Part shown: in pieces, positions 1 through 64,000 of the stretch
Position numbering within the stretch: the stretch's first letter is position 1
Layout: each line of letters opens with the position of its first letter
Assembly (NCBI GenBank): GCA_021904315.1
Contig: CM038909.1
Coordinates: 24,275,032 to 24,339,031, forward strand
Reading direction: 5' to 3'
Length of the DNA: 64,000 nt
From: Sphagnum magellanicum
Lineage: Eukaryota; Streptophyta; Sphagnopsida; Sphagnales; Sphagnaceae
Made by a program: the position numbers and the translations under genes
Notes under the pieces: model-generated
Seen by the model: the letters and a program-made list of their open reading frames with translations, nothing else
Database searches by the model: none
Told to the model about the DNA's origin: nothing

Positions 1-1450
1 CTCCCTCCATCTTTTGCATCGTCATCATCCACAAGAATTTGAGGTATCTCCTCTGTAATGGGGTGCGTTTCTGGAATATCCCCGTGCAAGATGAGCCAAC
101 TACATGGCTTCCATCATCCCAAGCTAATGGTAGCTTCCCAAAAACCCTAAATAACCTAGGATTGTTCTATAAGAGAATCAATTGACCAAGTTTCAACCAA
201 TCTGCACAAAAAAATACTTGCTCCACAGATTTTGGAAATACAAATGGCTGGTCTTTTAGCCTATTTGACTAGTAGACTTGAGTATTATCAATGGCATAAA
301 ACATGTACTCATCATACTCCACAATGCTCCAAAACCACTGGACTTTGAAGACAACCAATTTTGAGCTTTGATCTTTCAAGTTCAAGTAATCCATTTTAAA
401 ATTTTTTTCCAGTAATCCAATGTAGTCGACATCATTGCCACCTTCTTGGAACATATAAGCAATTCTTGAATCACAACTATGCCTTCACTCATCGAGGTTA
501 TGGATTCGATAGTGGCACCCATACACCCGCATGGTGGAGTTTGACTAATAGTTAAAGTTGCAGCCCATTGCTAGAAAGTAACCTGGGAAATAAACAACAA
601 AGTTTTATAATGTTAAATGTACAATAGTAGTAAGGACACATTTCAAAGGATTAAGGCAAAAATTGGATTAGCAGCAAATTTAATACTTGCAATGTTTGAA
701 ACATCTTCATTCATGAAACACCCATCTTCTTTTGCTTTTGCAACTGCATCTCTTACCTAATCACCAAAGTCTGGCATTTTTGCAAGGCGTGGACCTTGTA
801 AGACCTTCATGTTACTTTTGAAGGGCATTTTCAGTCTCTTCTTTCGTGTCCTCATAAGCTTGCAACCATGGGTCCATTATTACCATATTTTGTGCAACAA
901 ACTTGTTGATTTGCTTATAACCCACATCATCATATCCTTGAAATTTTTTTGGTTTTCCCTTTCTTAGCAATATTTCACCTATCAAAAACCAACAATGTCA
1001 GTCATTTATTAGTTTAGTTCATACTTGCAACATGTTCTGACCTCCAATGTGTTGAAAAAATGAATTCAAGTCAAGGTGATCATACCCATTTTTCGGGCAT
1101 TTGATGTCTCTTTCCAAACTCAAAGGGCATATTCCTTGAGGTCTCCAATTAAATCATGGCACTTATTCATTGCTTATTGTATCAAATATCTTTCCATTGT
1201 GCTCCCTTCAAGATGAGCACGTTGTTTGACAAAACCTTTTAGGGTTTTTAAGAACCTTTCAATGAAAAACATATACCTACTTTCCAATGGGCTTGCAAGC
1301 CCTACTTCTTACACCAAATGAATCAACAAGTGAACTTGGGAATCAAAGAATGAAGTAGGCATGTGCATTTCCAACAAAGTAAGAACAATTGCACTATCCC
1401 TTTCCATTACCAAAAGTTCTTACTTATTAATTTCCTTAGCACACACCCAT
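1..1450 (-). mobile_element. Decayed CACTA (En/Spm) transposase remnant, C-terminal part
   Basis: Read on the minus strand, this stretch carries pieces of a TNP2-type CACTA transposase. Around 1440-1090 is a DUF4218-like stretch: the order P-T-S-F-F-D, then H-L-L-I-H-L-V, then a segment with F-I-E-R-F-L-K-T-L-K and a following E-G-S-x-x-E-R-Y matches the conserved DUF4218 core. Around 470-60 is a DUF4216-like stretch (DYIGLLEKNFKMDYL, later VVFKVQWFW, then VEQVFF). The order DUF4218 then DUF4216 along the minus strand is the usual order in these proteins. In-frame stops fall inside both stretches (for example one directly after HLV in the DUF4218 part) and the DUF4216 part needs frame changes, so it is a pseudogene. 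The catalytic domain would lie at higher coordinates on this strand and was not recognised. The element runs off the left edge, so its true ends are unknown. Confidence 0.75.
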
Positions 1451-2926: not shown

Positions 2927-4140
2927 AAAGATTTTAGACTAGGTAACTGGTGAGAGCACATCTTGGTTACTGGAAATAACTGAGCATCAATGGAGCTCTG
3001 AGGGGGAGAGGTAGAGAGAGCTGGAAACAATATTTGCTACTATATTTGGTGTAGTAGTTTTGGGTGCTTTAGATTATTATTGCCGAGACATACTTCAGGA
3101 TATTACAAATTTTTGGACTTGTTGAGAAGAAGAAGAACAAGAAGAAGAAGCTTAGGAACATCTCCAAGTGCAACAACTGTTGCTCAAAGGACATCTGCAA
3201 GAAGAGTAACAACCATTGCACAGGAACATTTTGCAACATTTTGCAAGAGCAATAACCATTGTTCAGGAACAACTGCAAGAGGAACAACTGCCATCACTCA
3301 GGATTATTGGGGAACTAGTTAGAGCATGATATGGAACAACAAATTGCATGAACTTCTTTGGGAGTTATTTGGGGGAACTGGGAACAATAATCCAAGAACT
3401 ACTAGAGCCAGCTTCCACATTAAAAAAAACCATTTAATTTCTTTTTAATGGTTATTTTTTCATGATCTACATAAGTCTACCATGATATTGTCATATGAGT
3501 GGTGAAATTATTCAGATCATAGCCTGCAATAATTATGATGGTTTTCAACACCTTAGCTTCATATTTTCACAAACTTTTTTTTTTCAATATTTGAAGGATT
3601 ATTTAATGATGAAACTAACCCTCAGGTCAGTACTTAGGTATGGGATCTCTATTTCTAAAATGGGTTGTTGGGAGAGCCTAGAAAAACTATGATTCTCAAT
3701 TAACACATGAATTGTGAAATTTGGTGGGGGGGAGTGCAAGAAGGAATGACTAATGGAGAAGAAGATGGAAAGCTTCCTATCATTCCGGATGCACCTTACA
3801 CCTCTCAAGTCTTGCTGCCTTGTGACCTAAATACCTATGCATAGACTTCCAATAATGTTCACCTCCTGCTTTAGGACAGGTAATGGTCACACATGAGTGA
3901 AATTGCTGAAATGTGCGGGGGGCAGGACCTGGTTACCACTTCATCTTCGAAGACAAGAAAAAACACCCCCTAATGAGCATTTTCCAGCACAAAATGTGGT
4001 CAAAATGCTTCGCCTTGTGCATGGGCATTTTGAAAGATGAAATGGTCCTCCCCAAAAACAGAAAGTGCCTCCTCTCAGGAGAGGAGTTATTAGGCTTGGT
4101 ATAGTGCCCTTCCAACACATTGGGAAATTCTCGCCAGGTT
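2927..4140. other. Spacer with a GAACAACTGCAA-rich low-complexity tract
   Basis: Between 3120 and 3320 the sequence is built from degenerate AGAAG and CAACTGCAAGAGGAACAAC-like units. This leaves reading frames open on both strands without protein-like composition. The remainder shows no recognisable gene or repeat. Confidence 0.4.
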
Positions 4141-29356: not shown

Positions 29357-30055
29357 ATGGGGCAAGATGAGGAGTTGCCGAGGGATGCAAAGCTCGTGAA
29401 ATCCATTCTCCGATCAATGGGTGTGGAGCATCATGAGCCGCGGGTGGTGAATCAGTTCCTGGATTTGTGGTACAGGTACGTGGTGGACGTGCTGGGTGAT
29501 GCGCAAACGTACTCAGAGCATGCTGGCAAGACTGCCATCGATTGCGATGATGTAAAGCTAGCAATTCAATCTCGCGTCAATTTCTCCTTCTCGCAGCCGC
29601 CTCCCCGCGAGGTAGGTATATAGAACTTGACGCAACAACTTTCTTCTGCCTTGCATGCTTGATCCGGTCTCTGTTCTTTTCTATCTTTTCTTTTTGGGCT
29701 TAAGGGTTTTTGTTTTTTGGTGCCGTGGTGCAAATTCCAGACACTGGTGGAATTGGCCAAGGCGAGGAACAGCATTCCATTGCCCAAGGTCATAGGAAGT
29801 CCAGGCATAGCCTTGCCGCCTGAACTGGATACTCTGATCGCGCCGAATTACCAGCTTGCGGTGCCTACTCGTACGTTCCCCGAAATGGACGAAGACGAGA
29901 CAGAACGAAAAGGTGATGCCAAAAATTCCAAAGACAACGCCACTGCTGCCAAAGATGTTGTTAGTGCACCTTCACAACCTACACATTTGCAAAAGTCTGA
30001 TCAAGATGGTCACAAGGTTTCCTTCTCTCTTGCTGGCAAAAGACCCAAAAGCTAG
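29357..30055 (+). CDS. TAF9: TAF9, histone-fold subunit of TFIID and SAGA, 2 exons
   Basis: It encodes a TBP-associated factor that pairs with TAF6 through histone folds in TFIID and, in SAGA-type complexes, links activators to Pol II. The exons are 29357-29611 and 29741-30055, with a 129-base GT-AG intron in phase 0. The product is 189 residues, close to the plant family length. Residues about 8-85 form the histone fold ([38 protein letters not shown]). After it comes the conserved SFSQPPPRE at the exon junction, then [15 protein letters not shown]. The last third is an acidic and Lys-rich tail ending in a [12 protein letters not shown] motif shared with plant TAF9. The start is the first ATG in frame with the fold, and the preceding bases are in a purine-rich leader. 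Confidence 0.96.
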
Positions 30056-32811: not shown

Positions 32812-35138
32812 TCATATCCCAAGTTGAGCAAGAACTCCTGCAGATGTCATAGACTTCCAGTCGAGGTTTGCCAGGCCATAAAGGAACCGCTCTGAGGATC
32901 GGAGGAGACCCACAAGTGTAAGCTTAGACAAACGTTGCAACTCTTGTGGAGGAGGCTTACAAAACCGTGGGGCCTCTTTCACTTCTGATATTGTGTGTCC
33001 CAGTTCCTGTCTCAAAGTTTCTACGACATTTGTGTCTACTGGATCTCCAGAAGCATTGGTAACATAAAACACATTGACAGCCTTGTCATCTCGAGTCGCA
33101 ACATCTGCCCTTGTAACTGATAGACCATTTTCTCGAAACACACGGGTCACATGAGACAAAAGGCCAACCCTATCATTTGTGCAAAGCTCCAGCCTAAGAC
33201 CCTGCACCATGCAAAAATGCAACAGAGACATCAGTTTGAAGAAACACTCTCCCAAGAGCTTTTGCTCACCATCCAAGAAAGTATATCAAACATGTCATGT
33301 GCTGTTGCACAGCAGATAAAAGACCCCACCTCGCAAGATCTCCGATCAATGGCAGCTTCAAGACACTGCTTCATCCATTTCTCAGCTTCCATATCAAGAG
33401 TACAACCATTGACATGACGAATGTAGTATTCCTGTTAAACAAGAGCACATTTTGAGGTCAGGGTCAAGAAACCACTTTCAAACAACAAGACTTCCCACAA
33501 TCAAACATACCATACAGAACCTCCACATTTGCACCCCAACAGCTTCACAGTCTTGTCTTTGACAATCACATCATAGACATATCTTCTTTCAAAAGAAGCC
33601 CATAGACTATCAACTTGATGATAGTTAGCTCAAATGAAGAGTTGTGAAATCTGCAATCTTCCAGTCTGCAGTAACAAATGACATTGTACCTGAACAGCGT
33701 CAGTGCCTTTGGAGTTGACAGTAGCATGGAAGACAACATATTGCATGTCTGTCAAGGTGCAGACAATATCAAACAGAAGCTTGGGTCGGTCTTTGCACGC
33801 AACATTGATCACAGAGTAACCCCTCTCATTACGGCTCTGAATATCAATAACAGGCTTGTCTTTCTTCTCCACCGTGCTGCTTCTACTAGTACTACACCTC
33901 GGTGCTGGTGGGAGCTCAAGAGCTTCATAATCCCTGTCTGCAAACATCATCTGATGCAACCTTCTCTCAGTGTGCGTCACCTCTGTTGCAATGTCTGTTT
34001 TAGCTCCTCCTCCTCCCCTCTTTTCGTCATTGCTTGCTCCTCCTTTCATGACTTTGAAGAGCAGCTCCTTGATGCGTTCAAGTTTTTTTCCATTTGTAAT
34101 CGGCCCTGGAGTCTCTTCATCTGTAACATACAAGACAAAAGCAGCTCTGAGATTGTGTGTCCAGACCTCCGCCGCATTGACATTGCATCCTGTTTCCGTC
34201 AGAACTGCGGAAACCTCAGACAGAAGACCTGGCCTGTCTTTCCCTGTGAGCTCTATCACTGTGTGCTCGGCTATGGACTTCACCCCGACTGAACGACCGG
34301 GACATCGCAAGAGATCCACTGACGAAAGCTCCCGCTTCATCTTAGTTCCTAGAGTCTGCATAAGCAGCCGGAAAAACGCAGTCAGAAAAGCAGTCACAGA
34401 ATGAAAGGCAACGTCTTGACAGACTGCAGCAGAGAGTTGTGCAAGCGACCCACCTGCTGAACATAGCCCATTATACTCTCCTCCGAGACTTTGTTTCCGC
34501 ACAAGTCCGTCACATGGAACACTGTCACCAAGAAGAAAAGCGAGTCAGCAACACACATGAAGAACATGGGAAATGCTTCAAGGCAACAAGAGCACAAGCA
34601 AATGATCTCCCCAAAGAATGGCGTAGCAAAGAGCAGGAATGTGCAGCAGACACACCGTCCATGAACCATTCTCCGTCTGAAGAGATGTACGCTTTGGAGA
34701 TCGCCAGCTCGAGATCGGTGAGCACTTGCACAACGCTTAGAAGAATCCCATGCCTGTTGGCACTGTGGAACTGTGAAAAAGAGCCAGTGTCAGTTGCTGC
34801 TACACAGATACATGAAGATCTGAGACAGTTCTGTTATCGCAGCTGCTAGTGGGAGAAGAGCAAGCCTACCTTCACAACTGTGACATCTTCGTACGCATCG
34901 TTGTCTATAACAACCCTGCAACAAGAAGAAACCTGGCACAGTATGAGAAATAACAAAAGTAAGTGAAACGAAAAAGACAAGTGCGCCGCCGGGGCACCTT
35001 GTCGGAGATAACGCGCCGAGCAACGCCAGAGGTTGGAGAACAGCCTTACCTCGGAGGATTGTAACGAGGTCCGCTTGTTTCGTACTCAGGATCAAAGTAC
35101 GGCCAGCTTCTGGAAACCGCTCCTGAAGCTTCCGCCAT
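32812..35138 (-). CDS. ACT-domain repeat (ACR) protein with four ACT domains, 7 exons
   Basis: Plant ACR proteins are uridylyltransferase/GlnD-like ACT-repeat proteins thought to sense amino acids; no enzymatic domain is present. Minus-strand exons, in coding order, are 35138-35050, 34915-34870, 34770-34656, 34521-34454, 34355-33690, 33431-33330 and 33201-32812. All are GT-AG and in phase, for 491 residues. The start gives [20 protein letters not shown], the typical ACR opening, followed by [12 protein letters not shown] domains lie at about 40-100, 130-200, 268-340 and 363-435, the last three each opening with a [KTN]DR[PV]xLL motif ([24 protein letters not shown]). A conserved [17 protein letters not shown] segment sits between domains 2 and 3. 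The third domain is split between exons 5 and 6. It resembles Arabidopsis ACR3/4/6/8; which paralogue cannot be said. Confidence 0.95.
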
Positions 35139-46460: not shown

Positions 46461-46599
46461 GCATTTCCCGAACGGGATTTGTCGTCTTCTCCTTCGCGGG
46501 TTTTGTCTGAAGTCTGTTACTCTCGCGTTTGTGTGTGCGCTCTTGGTCGTGGTTTTGTTTTTTTCCCTCGTGCTCGATAATTGAATTCCGTGTGAGAGG

Positions 46600-47034
46600 A
46601 TGCCTCGTCAAAGGAGCGCAGGAGGGCGAACAGCATCTCGGCCGGTGATGCGACGGGCGCCTCCGCCAGCACCGGTGCATCATGCGTCGCCTCCAGCGCC
46701 TGTGCAGCAGAACAGCAGTGGAGGTTCGATGCTAGGAGGTTTGGCTAGTACTATCGCGCAAGGAATGGCGTTCGGAACAGGAAGTGCCGTAGCGCATAGA
46801 GCCGTGGACTCCATTATGGGACCTCGCACCGTTCACCACGAACAAATGCAACAGGAGGGAGGAGGAGCAGGTGCCGCGCCGCTCACCTCCACTGTGGCTA
46901 TGGATTCGTGCGTAAACCAGTCTAAGGCTTTCCAGGACTGTTTGAATGCCAACGGTAGTGATATTGGCAAGTGCCAGTTCTATGTCGACATGCTGAACGA
47001 GTGCCGTCGAGGTTCTGCTCAATTGGTGCTTTGA
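46600..47034 (+). CDS. CHCHD2/CHCHD10-like mitochondrial twin CX9C protein, 144 aa
   Basis: It is a small protein of the mitochondrial intermembrane space whose family (CHCHD2/CHCHD10, yeast Mix17) supports cristae organisation and respiration and is imported through the Mia40 oxidative folding route. The single uninterrupted frame opens MPRQRSAGGRTASRPVMRRA, a basic and Pro/Ala-rich start. The conserved hydrophobic and glycine-rich segment SMLGGLASTIAQGMAFGTG then AVAHRAVDSIMGPR occupies about residues 43-75. The C-terminal CHCH domain has two CX9C pairs, C-x9-C in SCVNQSKAFQDC and C-x9-C in KCQFYVDMLNEC, about residues 103-137. The length is typical. No intron is needed, unlike many plant copies. 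It lies directly behind a duplicated telo-box leader. Confidence 0.95.
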   Translation: MPRQRSAGGRTASRPVMRRAPPPAPVHHASPPAPVQQNSSGGSMLGGLASTIAQGMAFGTGSAVAHRAVDSIMGPRTVHHEQMQQEGGGAGAAPLTSTVAMDSCVNQSKAFQDCLNANGSDIGKCQFYVDMLNECRRGSAQLVL

Positions 47035-56525: not shown

Positions 56526-57495
56526 GTCTAAATTTTGGCTACAAGATATATCTTAGGGGAATTGAACCACGGTCTGAATGAATCCTGCCCACTGCAACTA
56601 GAAATGATGGGCTTGCAAAACATACAACATATTAATAATATATATCCATAAGTACAAAGCACAATTGCAAGGCATACAATGCCAACATAAAAACTATAGG
56701 AATGGAGCTTGTATTCAATGGAAAATTCATGTTGGAATTTAAAAGTTGAGGGAAAAAATCTCAAAAAGGACAAAATGCAGAAAGAGTTTTTAAGACTTTG
56801 GTCTTTGTCGAAAAATAGAGTTATTGATCTATTGCTCTCCAAACTTTCTTTTATGTCCATTCTTTGATCACAATACCAAATGGAAACCTTTCAAAAAAAG
56901 AAAAAACCTTGCATACATGTGCACAACCAAATTCAAACGTGTTGTGAGCATGTTTCACAATTTGTTCTTCATGGAGGATAATGTGGAGAAACGTTTTTCA
57001 TCCTCAACATTTCCCAAAATCATAGGCATAGATAGTTCCATAGACTTTCACCACTTTGAAAGCTTATGAAAGATAATATGTCTGTTGGCCACCAATGCCC
57101 TCATCTAGGAATATGGATTACAATTAGCTGGTGGCTTCATAGCTGCAACCCCATTTGACATCATTGTCATTTTGAAAAAAATGGTTTGTTCATCGAACAA
57201 AAGGTTCATCAAGAAGGGAGGGAATGAAAAGCCTATTGGCCCCTATGTGCCTATGATAGAATTGGGATTTTATAATGATAAGTTGAAGTAAGAAAATATG
57301 TTCATCTTCTAGATGTAGCCAAAATTGGGGGTATAAATGCATGTAACATTCATGATTTCTTTTAAAGGGAGCCTTTGATCCAATTATTCAATTAGCCCAC
57401 ATTGAGTAACATTGCTACATTATTTTTTCACCTTTTTCACAATTAGAAGCCAATCGACCCTTAAAACCTAACTCAAAATTCCAATCAATGTGCAT
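56526..57495. other. Spacer without recognisable features
   Basis: Frames at 56528-56860 and 56824-57069 have no recognisable family. Confidence 0.4.
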
Positions 57496-57714
57496 CACTA
57501 GTAGAAAAAAACTTTTTTTTACTAGTCTTTGCAACAATTATTTAATTGTAAATGACATTTACAACTAAAATTTTCTTAATTGCCTTGGACAAGTCGCATA
57601 AAACAAATGTCACAAGTGACATGAATTATGGATGTAAAAAAAATCAAAGAAATATGGTTTCATCCTTTGACTTATTGTATGTGTATCATCATTTGCGACT
57701 TACCATGCGACTAA

Positions 57715-57960
57715 TTTGGTCACCCAAACAACAAATGATATGTTGCCATGTGGCAATGTTTTTAATATTAAAAAATATCCACACCATTCATTTCAAATGG
57801 CCATATTATATGACACATGGAAAAATAACATATTGCCATGTGGCATATTAATTGTGTCCATTTTATTTTTTAAAGCCAGTTACTTGGTGCCATGTGGCAT
57901 TATAAATTATATCCATTTATTTTTTGAAAGAAATTTTTTTAATGACACATGGCACGTTGA
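57715..57960. repeat. Short repeated CCATGTGGCA segments
   Basis: TTGCCATGTGGCA or GTGCCATGTGGCA occurs at about 57742, 57835 and 57889, and complementary GACACATGG at about 57810 and 57943, each followed by ATATCCATTTATTTTTTG-like sequence in two cases. Similar GACACATGGCA segments occur in the nested insert near 59965 and 60115, linking the two elements. Confidence 0.6.
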
Positions 57961-58679
57961 AACATTATTTAATATATAATATTTTACCTAATTAATTAAT
58001 TTCAGATTATTTCAATTAAGATCAATAGTTAGGCTGAGGCTAACCAAGTATGTTTACTTGATATTCCTATTTTATCTTGGGTTTCATCCTTTTGGGTCAA
58101 GCCTCTTGTATTGGCTCATCTCTTGAATGACACTTCCACTTTCAAGCCTTCTAATGCACCTATTGATACTAAATATGAAAACAATGAAAGACAAAGCATA
58201 TAAGTTAAACATTTTAATTGCAAGTGTCACCACCCTAGTCACAACTTCTTTCCAACTACCTCCTAATACCCAATGTGTTATTCTAGCTTACTTTACCTAC
58301 TAACTATTTAAATTATTATAAGTAATAAAAGTTAATAAATAATAATAATAAATTATTATTATTGTAGCTAATACATAATCAAGCTGGTTATTTTATTATT
58401 AATATTGTCTCACTTCTTCTAGCTTTTAATAATGATAGTAAACAATATATAATAACACTAATAATAATAATAATAACAAAAATAATAATTTCAGCATCTA
58501 TAGTAGTCTTTTAGTAATTAGTCATGTTATAATATATAATACAATATTTTCAGCAAATTATATATTTTACTACAAAAAAAATATTAATAAGAAAACTTAT
58601 TAGATTATTATTGAAGCTAGTGCCGAGCTATTTTGTCATTAATTATTTTTCTTACTATCTCATTACTTATAGCTTTTCC

Positions 58680-59570
58680 TATAAATTTTCCAAATTCAAA
58701 TATCATTTTTCAAAATTCAAATATCAAATAGCAGAATCAAATTTCTTTTTCAAAATTCAAAATTCGACTTTGCAGTTAAAATTTTCAAATTTTGGAAATC
58801 GAATATAAAATCTAGACTAGAAATATTTATATTTCAAATAATAAATTTCAAAAATGAACTATCCACTTTTAGATTCAAATAAAATTTCACATAACATTTA
58901 CATGTCCATTTTTACTCAATCAATAGTTTTAAATATTCAAATATTCATTTTAAGATTCAAATAACTTTTTTCAGACTTAAATATCAATTCATAGGTTCAA
59001 ATAAAAATTTCCATCTCAAATAATATTTATTATAATTGAGAAATCATTTTTCAAAATTTCAATATTAATTATCAGAAATGAAATATCAAGCTTCAGATTC
59101 AAATACAAAATTTCAGAACCAAATATCAATTTTCAAAATTGACATTTTCATTTTTAGATTCAAATTACAATTTTTAGAACTCAAATTACAAATTAAAAAT
59201 AAAAATGAAAACTGTTAGAATTGAAATAACAATATTCATATACAATTAAGATTTTCAATTTTATTTTTTATAGCTGAAATACCAATTTTCGGCATCAAAT
59301 AATAATTCTCAAAATTCAAATATTAATTTTCAGAATCGAAATATCCATTTTCAAATTCACATTACAAATTTTTTGAATTCAAACTACAAATTACAAATTG
59401 AAATTTTTAGAATTGAAATAATAAATTTCACATTCAAATGAAAAATTTCAAAATTGGAATACCAATTTTCATATGCAATAAAAAATTTCAAATTCAAATA
59501 ATATTTTTTATAATTGAAATGAAAAATTTTCAAAATTGAAATATTGATTTTCAAATTCATATAACAAGTT
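58680..59570. repeat. AT-rich array of about 21-bp degenerate units, left part
   Basis: Units such as ATTCAAATATCAATTTTCAG alternate with AATTGAAAT-bearing units, repeated dozens of times with many changes. The array stops at the left end of the nested CACTA insert and resumes at its right end, so it was continuous before the insertion. No coding content. Confidence 0.8.
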
Positions 59571-60559
59571 CTACACTAATAGAAAACCCCCCTTTTGCAA
59601 CTACATTTTCAATTACATCTTGATTATAAAACAAAGTTGAAATTAATAAAAATAGTTGCAAAGTATTTTTTGCAATTGAAAAATGTTTTTCTCACCTTCA
59701 AACCAAAAAAGTTAACAAGTAAAAGTCAACAATCACATTTTAGTTGAAAAAGTTTCCCACGTGTCAATACCACATCAATAGCCATCATTAACCATTTTAG
59801 TTGCAAACTATCTTACCAACCTAATCACGAGATGTTGTCAACTTTCCTCAATTAATCGATGAATTTCATCTACTAACTACACATGACATCAACAAAATAT
59901 TCAATTGCAATGTTGGACTACATTTCAACTATTTGCATTGAATGTTCAACCAATGATGTGATGACACATGGCACACCCAAAACATTCCACCATTGATCGG
60001 CCATAGGAGAAATTAAGTTGAAAGTGTTGCAACTATGATGGTCAATGCATTTGGCCAATGGTGGGATGACACATGTGATGATTTAATAGGGTTTGGGATG
60101 AGGCAATAATTAAATGACACATGGCATAACCTAGGCCTATCTATGTATATGGTACCTAAACATAGGCAACCATTTAATTACCTAAGGAAAGGCTAAGTCT
60201 AAACATGGCCCCCTAATCTAAACTTATGTTAAAGTTAAACCTAAGCACCTAAGCTAGGCCTAGACAAAAGTGGCCACTTAGCTTAAGCTAAGATTAGACA
60301 TAAGCATTAGGTGAGGCTTAGATCTAAATAAAAAATAAAGTCTTATTTTATTCAACCTAGCCTTTAAAATTGAACCTTTTTAATTAGCTCATTCCAAATG
60401 ACTGTTACAATTTCATGTTTACTTTGATTTTCCTTCATTCTAGTGCACTTGTTAATATATAGTTATTTACATGGAAATCAAACAATATGGGACAAACATT
60501 TTAACTGTCACCTTGAGAAGACAAGCTTTAAAACACACATAAGCCTAAAACTAAACATC

Positions 60560-61040
60560 TTTAGATCTTTTTAATTTCTTGTTTGATTTGAATTATGTAA
60601 AAAATTACATGAATGTCAATATAAACTCTACATTATCTTTTTAAACTCCAAAAGCAAAGGAGCAACACAAAAAAAACATAAAACATGTTTAAATTAGATA
60701 ATGCGTTTTCTCAAAAAATGACCCATTATTTTAGAATGTCATATATTCTTCATTTCTTATTCATTTTGTGTTATTTACAAAGCTATGGGTGCAGTAACCT
60801 AAGTTTTACATTACTTTTTTAAACTTCAAAAGCAAAGGACAACTAGAAAAAAACCACAAAGCGAACAAATGTACTAAATTTTAATGAGTGAATTAAGCCT
60901 ATGAGTGAACACTTACCCACTTCCTTTTAATGCATGTATCTTCTTCGATTTTTATCTATTTTGAATTATCTAAATGTCCATGGGTGCACCAAGTTAAGCT
61001 TTAAAACATCATTTTAGGCTTGAAAAGCAAAGGTAGAATG
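60560..61040. repeat. Three diverged units of about 180-200 bp inside the nested element
   Basis: ACATTATCTTTTTAAACTCC at 60630, ACATTACTTTTTTAAACTTC at 60808 and a related ACATCATTTTAGGCTTG at 61006 are each followed by AAAAGCAAAGG. They mark three successive units. Confidence 0.7.
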
Positions 61041-62079
61041 TATTAGGATTTAAAATTCTCTAATAGTTAAATGTATGTTGGTCAATTAATTTCCCCTAGT
61101 TATAACCTTGTGATAACGCAATTGCAACTTAATTAGTTACAACCTTGTTACAACTAAGTTATAACCTAGTTTTAATTTAGTTAAATTTAGAGCTAAACTA
61201 ATAGTTACCTAACATGAGTTTATTTTTTATGTCAATTACATGTGGTAAGCATTCAGCAAAATTTTAATAATTAATAATAATTACTCTAACAGAAAAATAG
61301 ATAATTATTATATATTTAAAATTTAAAATTTATGAATATCTCCCTATATATAATAAAGTTATATACTACTTAGAATATTATTAAAATAAATTAAATAATT
61401 AAATAATTATTATCCTTATGAAAATAATATTAATACTATTGTAACTAATATAAGTTAAATTGTTGTTTCACTATTATTGTTTGTAGGATAAACAAACTTG
61501 TTATAACTATTATAAATCTATGTAATATACTTTGAATAAAGATAAAATATAGTAAAACTATTGAGGTAAATATAATAGTGTTAAAATCAAAATAGTTTTT
61601 TAGATTATAAAATTATTTATTAAATATTCCTACAAACTATGCAAATTAATATTATTATTTACTATAAAAAATTCATAATGAAATAAATAGTCATCAGATA
61701 TATTCAAGCCAATAGTAACATTAGATTAATTCCAAAAACATCATTAAATTAAAATATATTTAAAATTAAATTAATTACTATATTGATTTCAAATAATCAT
61801 AATTATTTTTTATTACTTATGTTGTTAATGAAAAATTAAATTACATAGAAATAACTATTTCTACATGTGTTGAACATATTGTTATGAATTTGTATTTCAA
61901 TACACATTATTTTATACTTACAATTCAATTTTTTAAAATTATTTTAATATTTTTTATTTAAAATAAAAAATTAGTTGCATAGCACATAACCTTTCATTTT
62001 TATAAATGGAATTTACAAGTAACTTCATTTTAATGACTTTTAGTAATTTTTAAGAACTTTAAAATCGTCATGTGTATAA

Positions 62080-62500
62080 AAGTGACTAAACATTAAAGTT
62101 CCACAAAATACTAATTTTTTATCATTACTTGATATGTTGAAAACTAAATTTGATTTACAAAAAATTAGAAATTACATTTATTAAACATATGCATTATTCT
62201 TCATTTATATTTCAAAGTTTTACTTAATTTTATTATTTAAATGCACAACAATAATATTCCTTTCGATGATCATACGTAACAACTCATTTTTACAAATACA
62301 ATTACATGTATTTTAATCTTTGATGCATTTTGATCATAATTTTTAATAAATGTTAAGCTATCACACACAAAAAAATGAATAAACATTAGGATTCCACAAT
62401 TTACTCCTTAATTATATATCATTATTTGATATGTCTTAAAATAAATTTGGTCTACGTAAAAATCAAATATTACATGTATGAACATATACAAGATTAAATT
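62080..62500. repeat. Diverged duplication inside the nested element, offset about 295 bp
   Basis: AAACATTAAAGTTCCACAAA near 62087 and AAACATTAGGATTCCACAAT near 62382 open similar segments. Both continue through TATCATTACTTGATATGT or TATCATTATTTGATATGT. Confidence 0.65.
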
Positions 62501-63104
62501 ATTGATTCATATTCAAGATAATTGATTCAAAATTTATATGCATTACAACAATTATATACAAATAATTTATTCATTAATACACATTATTTTTAAAACTAAT
62601 TTAATGTTATCATAATTTCGCATAAATATTAACATACGTCGTATGTATAAAAACAAAATTACATATTAGTTGTTTAGTTGAGTGGAGAAATAATTGCAAC
62701 AAAGTTGCAAATGAAATTATATTTCATCCATCCATTAAAATACATTTTATCATCCATACATGTGTTGATAATGTCACCAAAGTAGTTGAACATTAGTTAA
62801 TGTCTTGACTATGTGCCAACTAGAAAACTTTTAATCAAAACATGTTTTTCACTACTTATTAACATAAAGACATTTCAACTTGGAGACATTATTGATGCTT
62901 AGAATATTCAATGGAATATTCGGCAAAATATCACCTAGTTGAAATCTCCTTTCAAACATATATTAATTTAGTTGATGATTCGACTTAATTGGTAATTGCC
63001 ATTATATTATTTCAAAATTAAAAAATTATAGTTGCAACAGAGTTGCAAATACGTTTAGTTTAAAGCTTCTTGGTTTAAAAAAGGAAGTTTTTCTATTAGT
63101 GTTA

Positions 63105-63540
63105 GAACTCAAATATCATTTTTTGGATTTGAAATATTGATTTTTACATTCAAATAACAGTTTTTAAAACTCAAATATCAATGTCATACTCAAAATGTTT
63201 TTTTTAAAGAATTGAAATAACAATTTTCAGATTAAATTAAAACTTCTTAAAACTCAAATACCAATTTTGAAATTCAAATAAGTTTTTTATATTTGAAATA
63301 ATAATTTTTAGATTCAAGTAAAAAAATTCAGAATTGAAATATGCACTTTCAAATTCAAATAAGAATTTTGGAATGTGCATAACAAGTTTTAGAATTGAAA
63401 TATTAATTTTCAGATTTAAAAAATTTTCTGTTCATTTTTTGAATTTACAGAACAATTTTCATAGTTCAAATATTAATTATCAATTTCAAAATATCAATTT
63501 CCAACTTCAATATATGAACATTGGACATACATTCGTATAA
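63105..63540. repeat. AT-rich array of about 21-bp degenerate units, right part
   Basis: The same unit type as 58680-59570 (AACTCAAATATCA, AGATTCAAGTAA, TTTTCAGATT). It resumes directly after the right end of the nested CACTA insert. Confidence 0.8.
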
Positions 63541-64000
63541 TTAATATACAAAAAAAACACACATTTATCATATGGGTAATGTATTTTACATACAATTTAA
63601 TATATACATAAAAACTTATCCCTAAATCGCCATAGAATATCTTTAGTTCAATGCGATTAACTTGGTGATTATTGCAACTAATGGAACATATAAGCCTATG
63701 CATGGATGAAAATAAACATTAAAACCATCCAAGTGATAGGATGAAATTATCAATAATTACAACAAAGTTGCAACAATGATCAAAATAATTGAAGTTTGAT
63801 CTCATAGTTGCAAAAATTCTCAAAATTAATCGCAAACAACTATAGGTTGCATGTAGTTATAAATGTAGTGGTTACATTTGGCTTATTTCTACTAGTGATA
63901 TAAGTGAGCCAAAAATTTAAAAAATTAGCATATTCAATCCTAAAATGTGGGTTCAATAATACATGTGATATAAATCCATTTGACAAGTCTTCACAACAAA

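Follow-up and report, generated by a model that had tools for sequence, protein, structure and literature searches.

How four CACTA-type transposon ends came to lie one pair inside the other is the question raised by positions 57496..63897 of a 64-kb stretch of Sphagnum magellanicum DNA (the window, meaning the whole stretch analysed; G000:C3:24275032-24339031). A first-pass annotation, made from the sequence alone, had read this region as a CACTA element inside a CACTA element, a reading supported by the paired ends, sister copies, target-site duplications, and empty sites described below. With a probability of about 95%, we conclude that the region holds two old, non-coding CACTA (En/Spm) transposons from two high-copy families, one nested in the other. 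The genome used for comparison was the window's own assembly (G000; 438,994,042 bases, ~439 Mb, 31 contigs).

Terminal sequences and the two element families

The outer element occupies 57496..63897 (+) and the inner element 59574..63101 (+). The sequence CACTANNAGAAA occurs exactly four times in the 64-kb window, starting at 57496 (+), 59574 (+), 63101 (-), and 63897 (-), compared with 0.21 occurrences expected by chance; the maximum among 100 shuffles was two, and none reached four. The two pairs differ at the sixth base of the tip, which is A for the inner element and G for the outer, both ends of the inner element being perfect CACTAATAGAAA and both ends of the outer element perfect CACTAGTAGAAA. 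These coordinates agree with the first-pass description of four CACTA ends (A or G at base 6, then TAGAAA) arranged as two nested pairs. The motif TTGCAAC, counted on either strand, is found 34 times in the whole window (15.6 expected), 16 of them within 57496-63897; the four terminal 300-bp ends contain 3, 3, 1, and 4 sites and the interiors 5 and 0. The motif is therefore common to all ends, as had been proposed, with the single site of the outer left end representing a weak subterminal-repeat signal. Terminal inverted repeats starting with CACTA and short subterminal repeats in both orientations, characteristic of the CACTA superfamily, are both present, and some sister copies begin with CATTA or CAATA instead of CACTA.

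Each 300-bp end was searched against the genome and 40 of 177-1071 first-look candidates were scored, which makes all copy counts lower bounds. The inner left end (59574..59873, +; 246 candidates) gave 39 other listed matches at 82-88% identity, 31 of which start at base 1; the inner right end (62802..63101, -; 177 candidates) gave 41 other rows, and the outer left (57496..57795, +; 940 candidates) and outer right (63598..63897, -; 1071 candidates) ends gave 40 each. In both families the homology of the other copies starts at CACTA. Genome-wide, a short inner-type end pattern was found at 191 places (96+95) and a degenerate outer-right pattern at 480 (233+247), compared with none for either reversed control.

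When the listed places were examined for ends facing each other (39/39 inner-left, 39/41 inner-right, 39/40 outer-left, and 39/40 outer-right rows), 24 of the 39 inner-left places faced an inner-right end at 2.8-5.0 kb and 6 of the 39 outer-left places faced an outer-right end at 1.8-2.7 kb. No mixed pair, inner-left with outer-right or outer-left with inner-right, was present within 12 kb among them; the four omitted rows adjoin listed rows (lengths ~27-216 bp), and visual inspection gave no mixed pair from them. Since like pairs number 24 and 6 and mixed pairs none, the pairing drawn in the first-pass annotation is the one used by the families. At C1:25432592-25438441, the pair facing across 5,850 bp consists of two outer-right-type ends instead of a left and a right one; these may belong to two nested or fused elements.

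The inner element is 3,528 bp long, with a G+C content of 24.6%, and shows full-length homology to four fetched copies (83.5-84.5% of 3,310-3,417 aligned columns), aligning in one piece with L089 and L091 and in two pieces, separated by a gap of ~125 bp, with L090 and L092. These copies represent two insertion events, as the flanks are common within each of the two couples; L089 shows no difference from L091 over 3,469 columns, and L090 and L092 are 99% alike. The inner-family copies at C23:113835-117307 and C18:16003851-16007324, identical over 3,469 columns and with common flanks, are either a recent segmental duplication or an assembly duplicate; additional copies carrying these flanks lie at C18:833884 and C23:20336.

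Like ends of the two window elements agree over 13 bases on the left and 12 on the right, and the inner right end agrees with the outer left end over 26 bases at 82%; left and right ends within one element also diverge past 15-23 bases, and the comparison of ends alone is accordingly not decisive. The window interiors gave no match to each other at E 1e-3, and comparison of outer with inner copies gave no match longer than 89 bp (at 74%). Judged from their sequences, inner and outer elements are two different families with little in common beyond the tip and TTGCAAC. The first-pass assignment of all four ends to one sequence family thus stands for the tip and the motif and fails beyond them, and separate annotation of the two high-copy families is called for.

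Host copies, target sites, and insertion order

With the inner element removed, along with a single copy of its target-site duplication, the outer element measures 2,871 bp. Overlapping pieces of paralogs at C18:9723664-9726184 and C9:6539786-6542349 match it over its entire length, and one at C12:12454117-12456664 (C12a) matches it from base 60 to 2866, with 79-81% of aligned columns identical. A shorter paralog (C4:3329552-3331352) agrees at 76% of aligned columns, and a fifth (C12:12539199-12541851) was seen in part; the C18, C9, and C12a copies are 2.5-2.6 kb long, and all five range over 1.8-2.7 kb. Because only weak 34-64-bp matches to the inner element occur in them, these paralogs lack it, and C18, C9, and C12a represent host copies without the guest.

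The inner element lies in an AT-rich array of ~20-21-bp units, the left part of which extends over 58686..59573 (Tandem Repeats Finder rows 58686-59564) and the right part, past the insertion, over 63105..63515 (rows 63106-63515), all limits being approximate. The array is attributed to the outer family because its paralogs give numerous overlapping off-diagonal matches to the middle of the window copy. In the alignment of C18 with the joined outer element (outer minus inner), from which the site was read, the inner insertion site corresponds to CATAACAAGTTCCAGAATTG, one unbroken array unit, whereas the window has ATAACAAGTTCTA and, beyond the interruption, GAACTC.

The 3-bp target-site duplication typical of the CACTA superfamily was found at the family level. 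With the window copies left aside and segmental duplicates collapsed to distinct insertion events, exact duplications flank 8 of the 10 inner events and all 4 outer ones, compared with 11 of 182 mismatched pairings. The inner census started from 24 pairs, 15 of which, with both flanks read, reduce to 10 events; a group of three copies on C5 was counted by its TTG/TTG copy, the other two reading TAA/CAA. Of the 15 uncollapsed inner rows besides the window, 11 are exact and the remaining four agree at two of three bases. The outer census comprised six pairs, four of which, with both flanks used, give three events, the L093 element being the fourth; C12:12539199 (one flank only) and C12:12454176 (left end unmatched) were excluded. 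The 14 left flanks compared, each 300 bp long, form 91 pairs; similarity was seen in just 2 of these, one being a known segmental duplicate. The search of the genome with the element ends, suggested together with the first-pass annotation, thus recovered further copies of both elements with shared boundaries and 3-bp flanking duplications.

Several observations weigh against nested insertion at this locus. Neither window copy retains an intact duplication: the inner element is flanked by CTA (59571..59573) and TTA (63102..63104), a 3-bp duplication with a single mismatch, and the outer by CAT and ATA, which agree at no position. The alignments of C9 and C12a are gapped and repetitive at the inner site and show no clean unit there. 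Continuity of the array across the joined inner junction is weak, being equalled by 9 of 300 random junctions when paralogs are used and by 43 of 300 when the window array is taken by itself, and this statistic was not relied on. End-to-end alignment of the uncut outer element to its paralogs, superseded by the joined alignment, either placed the large gap away from the inner boundaries or showed none. Moreover, no element combining these ends with TNP2 was found among the ends compared and the 150 TNP2 (of 152) and 150 DUF4218 places listed. As array continuity is weak evidence, nesting rests mainly on the paralogs. The order of insertion, which the first-pass annotation had derived from the split array and the CTA/TTA flanks, retains the array rows on both sides and the duplication with one change, and draws little support from continuity.

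The surroundings of the outer element bear on its missing duplication. Its joined flanks gave 32 genome matches from 24 candidates, including the window's own two, the others at 67-78% identity; with so many divergent matches, the host (window 57196-57495; C3:24338929 onward) is an old dispersed repeat. In four of seven fetched flank paralogs (on C12, C8, and two on C3), the two flanks adjoin without a CACTA element, making them paralogous empty sites; two of the remaining paralogs match the left flank only and one the right only. The two C3 sites are 95.5% alike over 777 bp, which leaves three empty sites if they are counted once. The first-pass reading thus withstands its own refuting condition, namely empty sites with other break points. 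All four carry 14 extra bases, absent from the window, between GTG of the left flank and CAT; the right flank in the window also lacks the C of CAT. Compared with the paralogs, 14-15 bp of target are missing. The simplest reading of these sequences is that ~15 bp beside the outer right end, together with one copy of the duplication, were deleted after insertion. A deletion before insertion followed by a 1-bp loss would give the same picture.

The absence of a duplication around the outer copy is also what would be expected if the four ends were neighbouring or recombined ends of different elements, joined by rearrangement rather than nested. We consider this very unlikely, because elsewhere outer left and right ends bound complete elements flanked by exact duplications, the window outer element minus the inner one aligns lengthwise with single paralogs, and both flanks adjoin in four of seven flank paralogs. 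A similarly small probability is given to a single CACTA family in which the inner element is a self-inserted copy of the outer kind: the shared CACTARTAGAAA tip and TTGCAAC motifs would suit it, yet the 12-13-base agreement of like ends, the lack of mixed facing pairs, and the unmatched interiors (no match at E 1e-3; longest inter-family match 89 bp, 74%) argue for two families. Chance CACTA words among AT-rich repeats could be suspected in a region of 22-25% G+C that is rich in repeats; however, the four perfect matches compared with 0.21 expected, the 191 and 480 end patterns without a counterpart in the reversed controls, the family boundaries, and the 3-bp duplications already refute this explanation, whose probability is negligible.

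For the nested arrangement of two families, the following order of events is proposed. The outer element, from the family with the internal ~20-bp array, inserted first, into the older dispersed repeat, and a small deletion beside it probably took away its duplication. The 3.5-kb inner element later entered the array, duplicating the 3 bp that now read CTA and TTA. The outer element is the older since the inner is nested in it. The best identities to fetched sisters (~84% for the inner and ~81% for the outer element) fit this order, although they are no clock, and no sign of recent movement of either window copy was seen.

Coding content and the source of transposase

The longest stop-to-stop frame is 56 aa in the inner and 102 aa in the outer element, and none of 10 frames tested reached the Pfam cut-off, the one sub-threshold row being DUF5083 (E 0.043). 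Both elements are therefore classed as non-autonomous, in accordance with the earlier statement that neither has a transposase. Genome-wide, first-look candidates numbered 657 for TNP2 and 479 for DUF4218, some of them in long open frames, and this abundance makes supply of transposase in trans plausible. Both elements were presumably mobilised in this way, each by a TNP2-type transposase made elsewhere that would recognise the CACTA tip and subterminal motifs, TTGCAAC among them.

The search for an autonomous partner used the end rows examined for facing pairs together with the first 100 of the 191 and the first 100 of the 480 end-pattern places, with DUF4218 places compared by eye; for two long inner-type pairs, with ends 13.0 kb apart at C4:21928161-21941195 and 7.4 kb apart at C7:12343881-12351313, it covered the ends only. 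Three of the compared ends have a TNP2 match within 12 kb on the interior side. The end at C8:2234013 belongs to a separate 3.0-kb element (L093), which ends before the TNP2 gene, and was rejected. At C8:17233844, TNP2 is 11.6 kb away and the 3.5 kb read (L108) shows the left end only. The end at C3:10157069, located between TNP2 and DUF4218 matches, looks, by position only, like an insert in another element and was likewise rejected. Neither of two 10-kb regions around stop-free TNP2 matches (L094 and L095) contained ends of the inner or outer types or a convincing CACTA pair.

At the left edge of the window, a disrupted DUF4218 stretch from a CACTA transposase gene (1177..1419, -; Pfam PF13960) belongs to a separate element. 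Of its pieces, which lie across frames, 1177-1308 has E 2.3e-8, and 1312-1419 (E 4.1e-5) falls short of the curated cut-off. The transposase remnant noted there earlier is thus real, and it need not be the partner of either element.

Known CACTA elements and neighbouring genes

The features described here have precedents in the parts of the literature consulted, in which CACTA ends, 3-bp duplications, subterminal repeats, abundant transposase-less members, and nesting are already described (PMC8978399, PMC8195511, PMC4290129). The Chenopodium CACTA element Jozin has 28-nt ends (CACTAGTAGAAAA...TTTGCAAC) and subterminal repeats, and a 3-bp duplication is stated for CACTA elements in the same account (PMC8978399). 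The window families resemble Jozin in the form of the ends, the subterminal repeats, and the 3-bp duplication; Jozin, however, is full length and has a transposase, which the window elements lack. LsC1 of lettuce is an active, 3.9-kb non-autonomous CACTA element with six candidate elements more than 96% identical (PMC8195511). It shares with the window elements the lack of a transposase gene, a similar size, CACTA ends, the 3-bp duplication, and a large family; in contrast to its activity and >96% identical relatives, the best full-length listed match of the window ends reaches 88%. On wheat chromosome 3B, 30,199 nested insertions were reconstructed, with CACTA among the scored elements and up to eight layers (PMC4290129); CACTA nesting is alike there, with eight layers compared with two here. 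For Sphagnum divinum, with an assembly of 439 Mb in 20 chromosomes, CACTA is reported as the commonest classified repeat, at 6.8% of the genome (PMC9946827). No publication on this locus or these two families was found among the papers listed for CACTA, nesting, non-autonomous elements, Sphagnum, and moss.

The locus is a clear but ordinary case of a transposon inside a transposon. What is gained is a two-layer order of insertion, now checked, for two CACTA families of high copy number in what is probably a CACTA-rich genome, and the general view of transposons is left unchanged by the nested pair.

Compared with two Chenopodium ends, the inner left end agrees at 21 and 20 of 28 positions, and its last 16 bases match at 10, a value reached by 17 of 5000 shuffles; past the tip, 368, 369, and 1850 of 5000 shuffles did as well as the other three window ends. 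The inner left end is the sole exception, and a modest one, since four ends were compared with five references. It is conceivable, though rather doubtful, that the 28-base end design of the moss elements (CACTARTAGAAAA, spacer, TTTGCAAC) and that of CACTA elements in flowering plants, Jozin for example, go back to a common ancestor. If so, the transposase recognition site would have been kept since before the split of mosses and flowering plants, with turnover of the remaining parts of the elements.

Elsewhere in the window, two ACT-domain frames of an ACR-type gene lie at 32815-34544 (-; Pfam ACT, E 1.4e-19 and 3.1e-10), a 149-aa CHCH-domain protein frame at 46585-47031 (+; E 1.2e-9), and a fragment resembling the end of the TFIID 31-kDa subunit family at 29663-30052 (+; E 5.6e-8).

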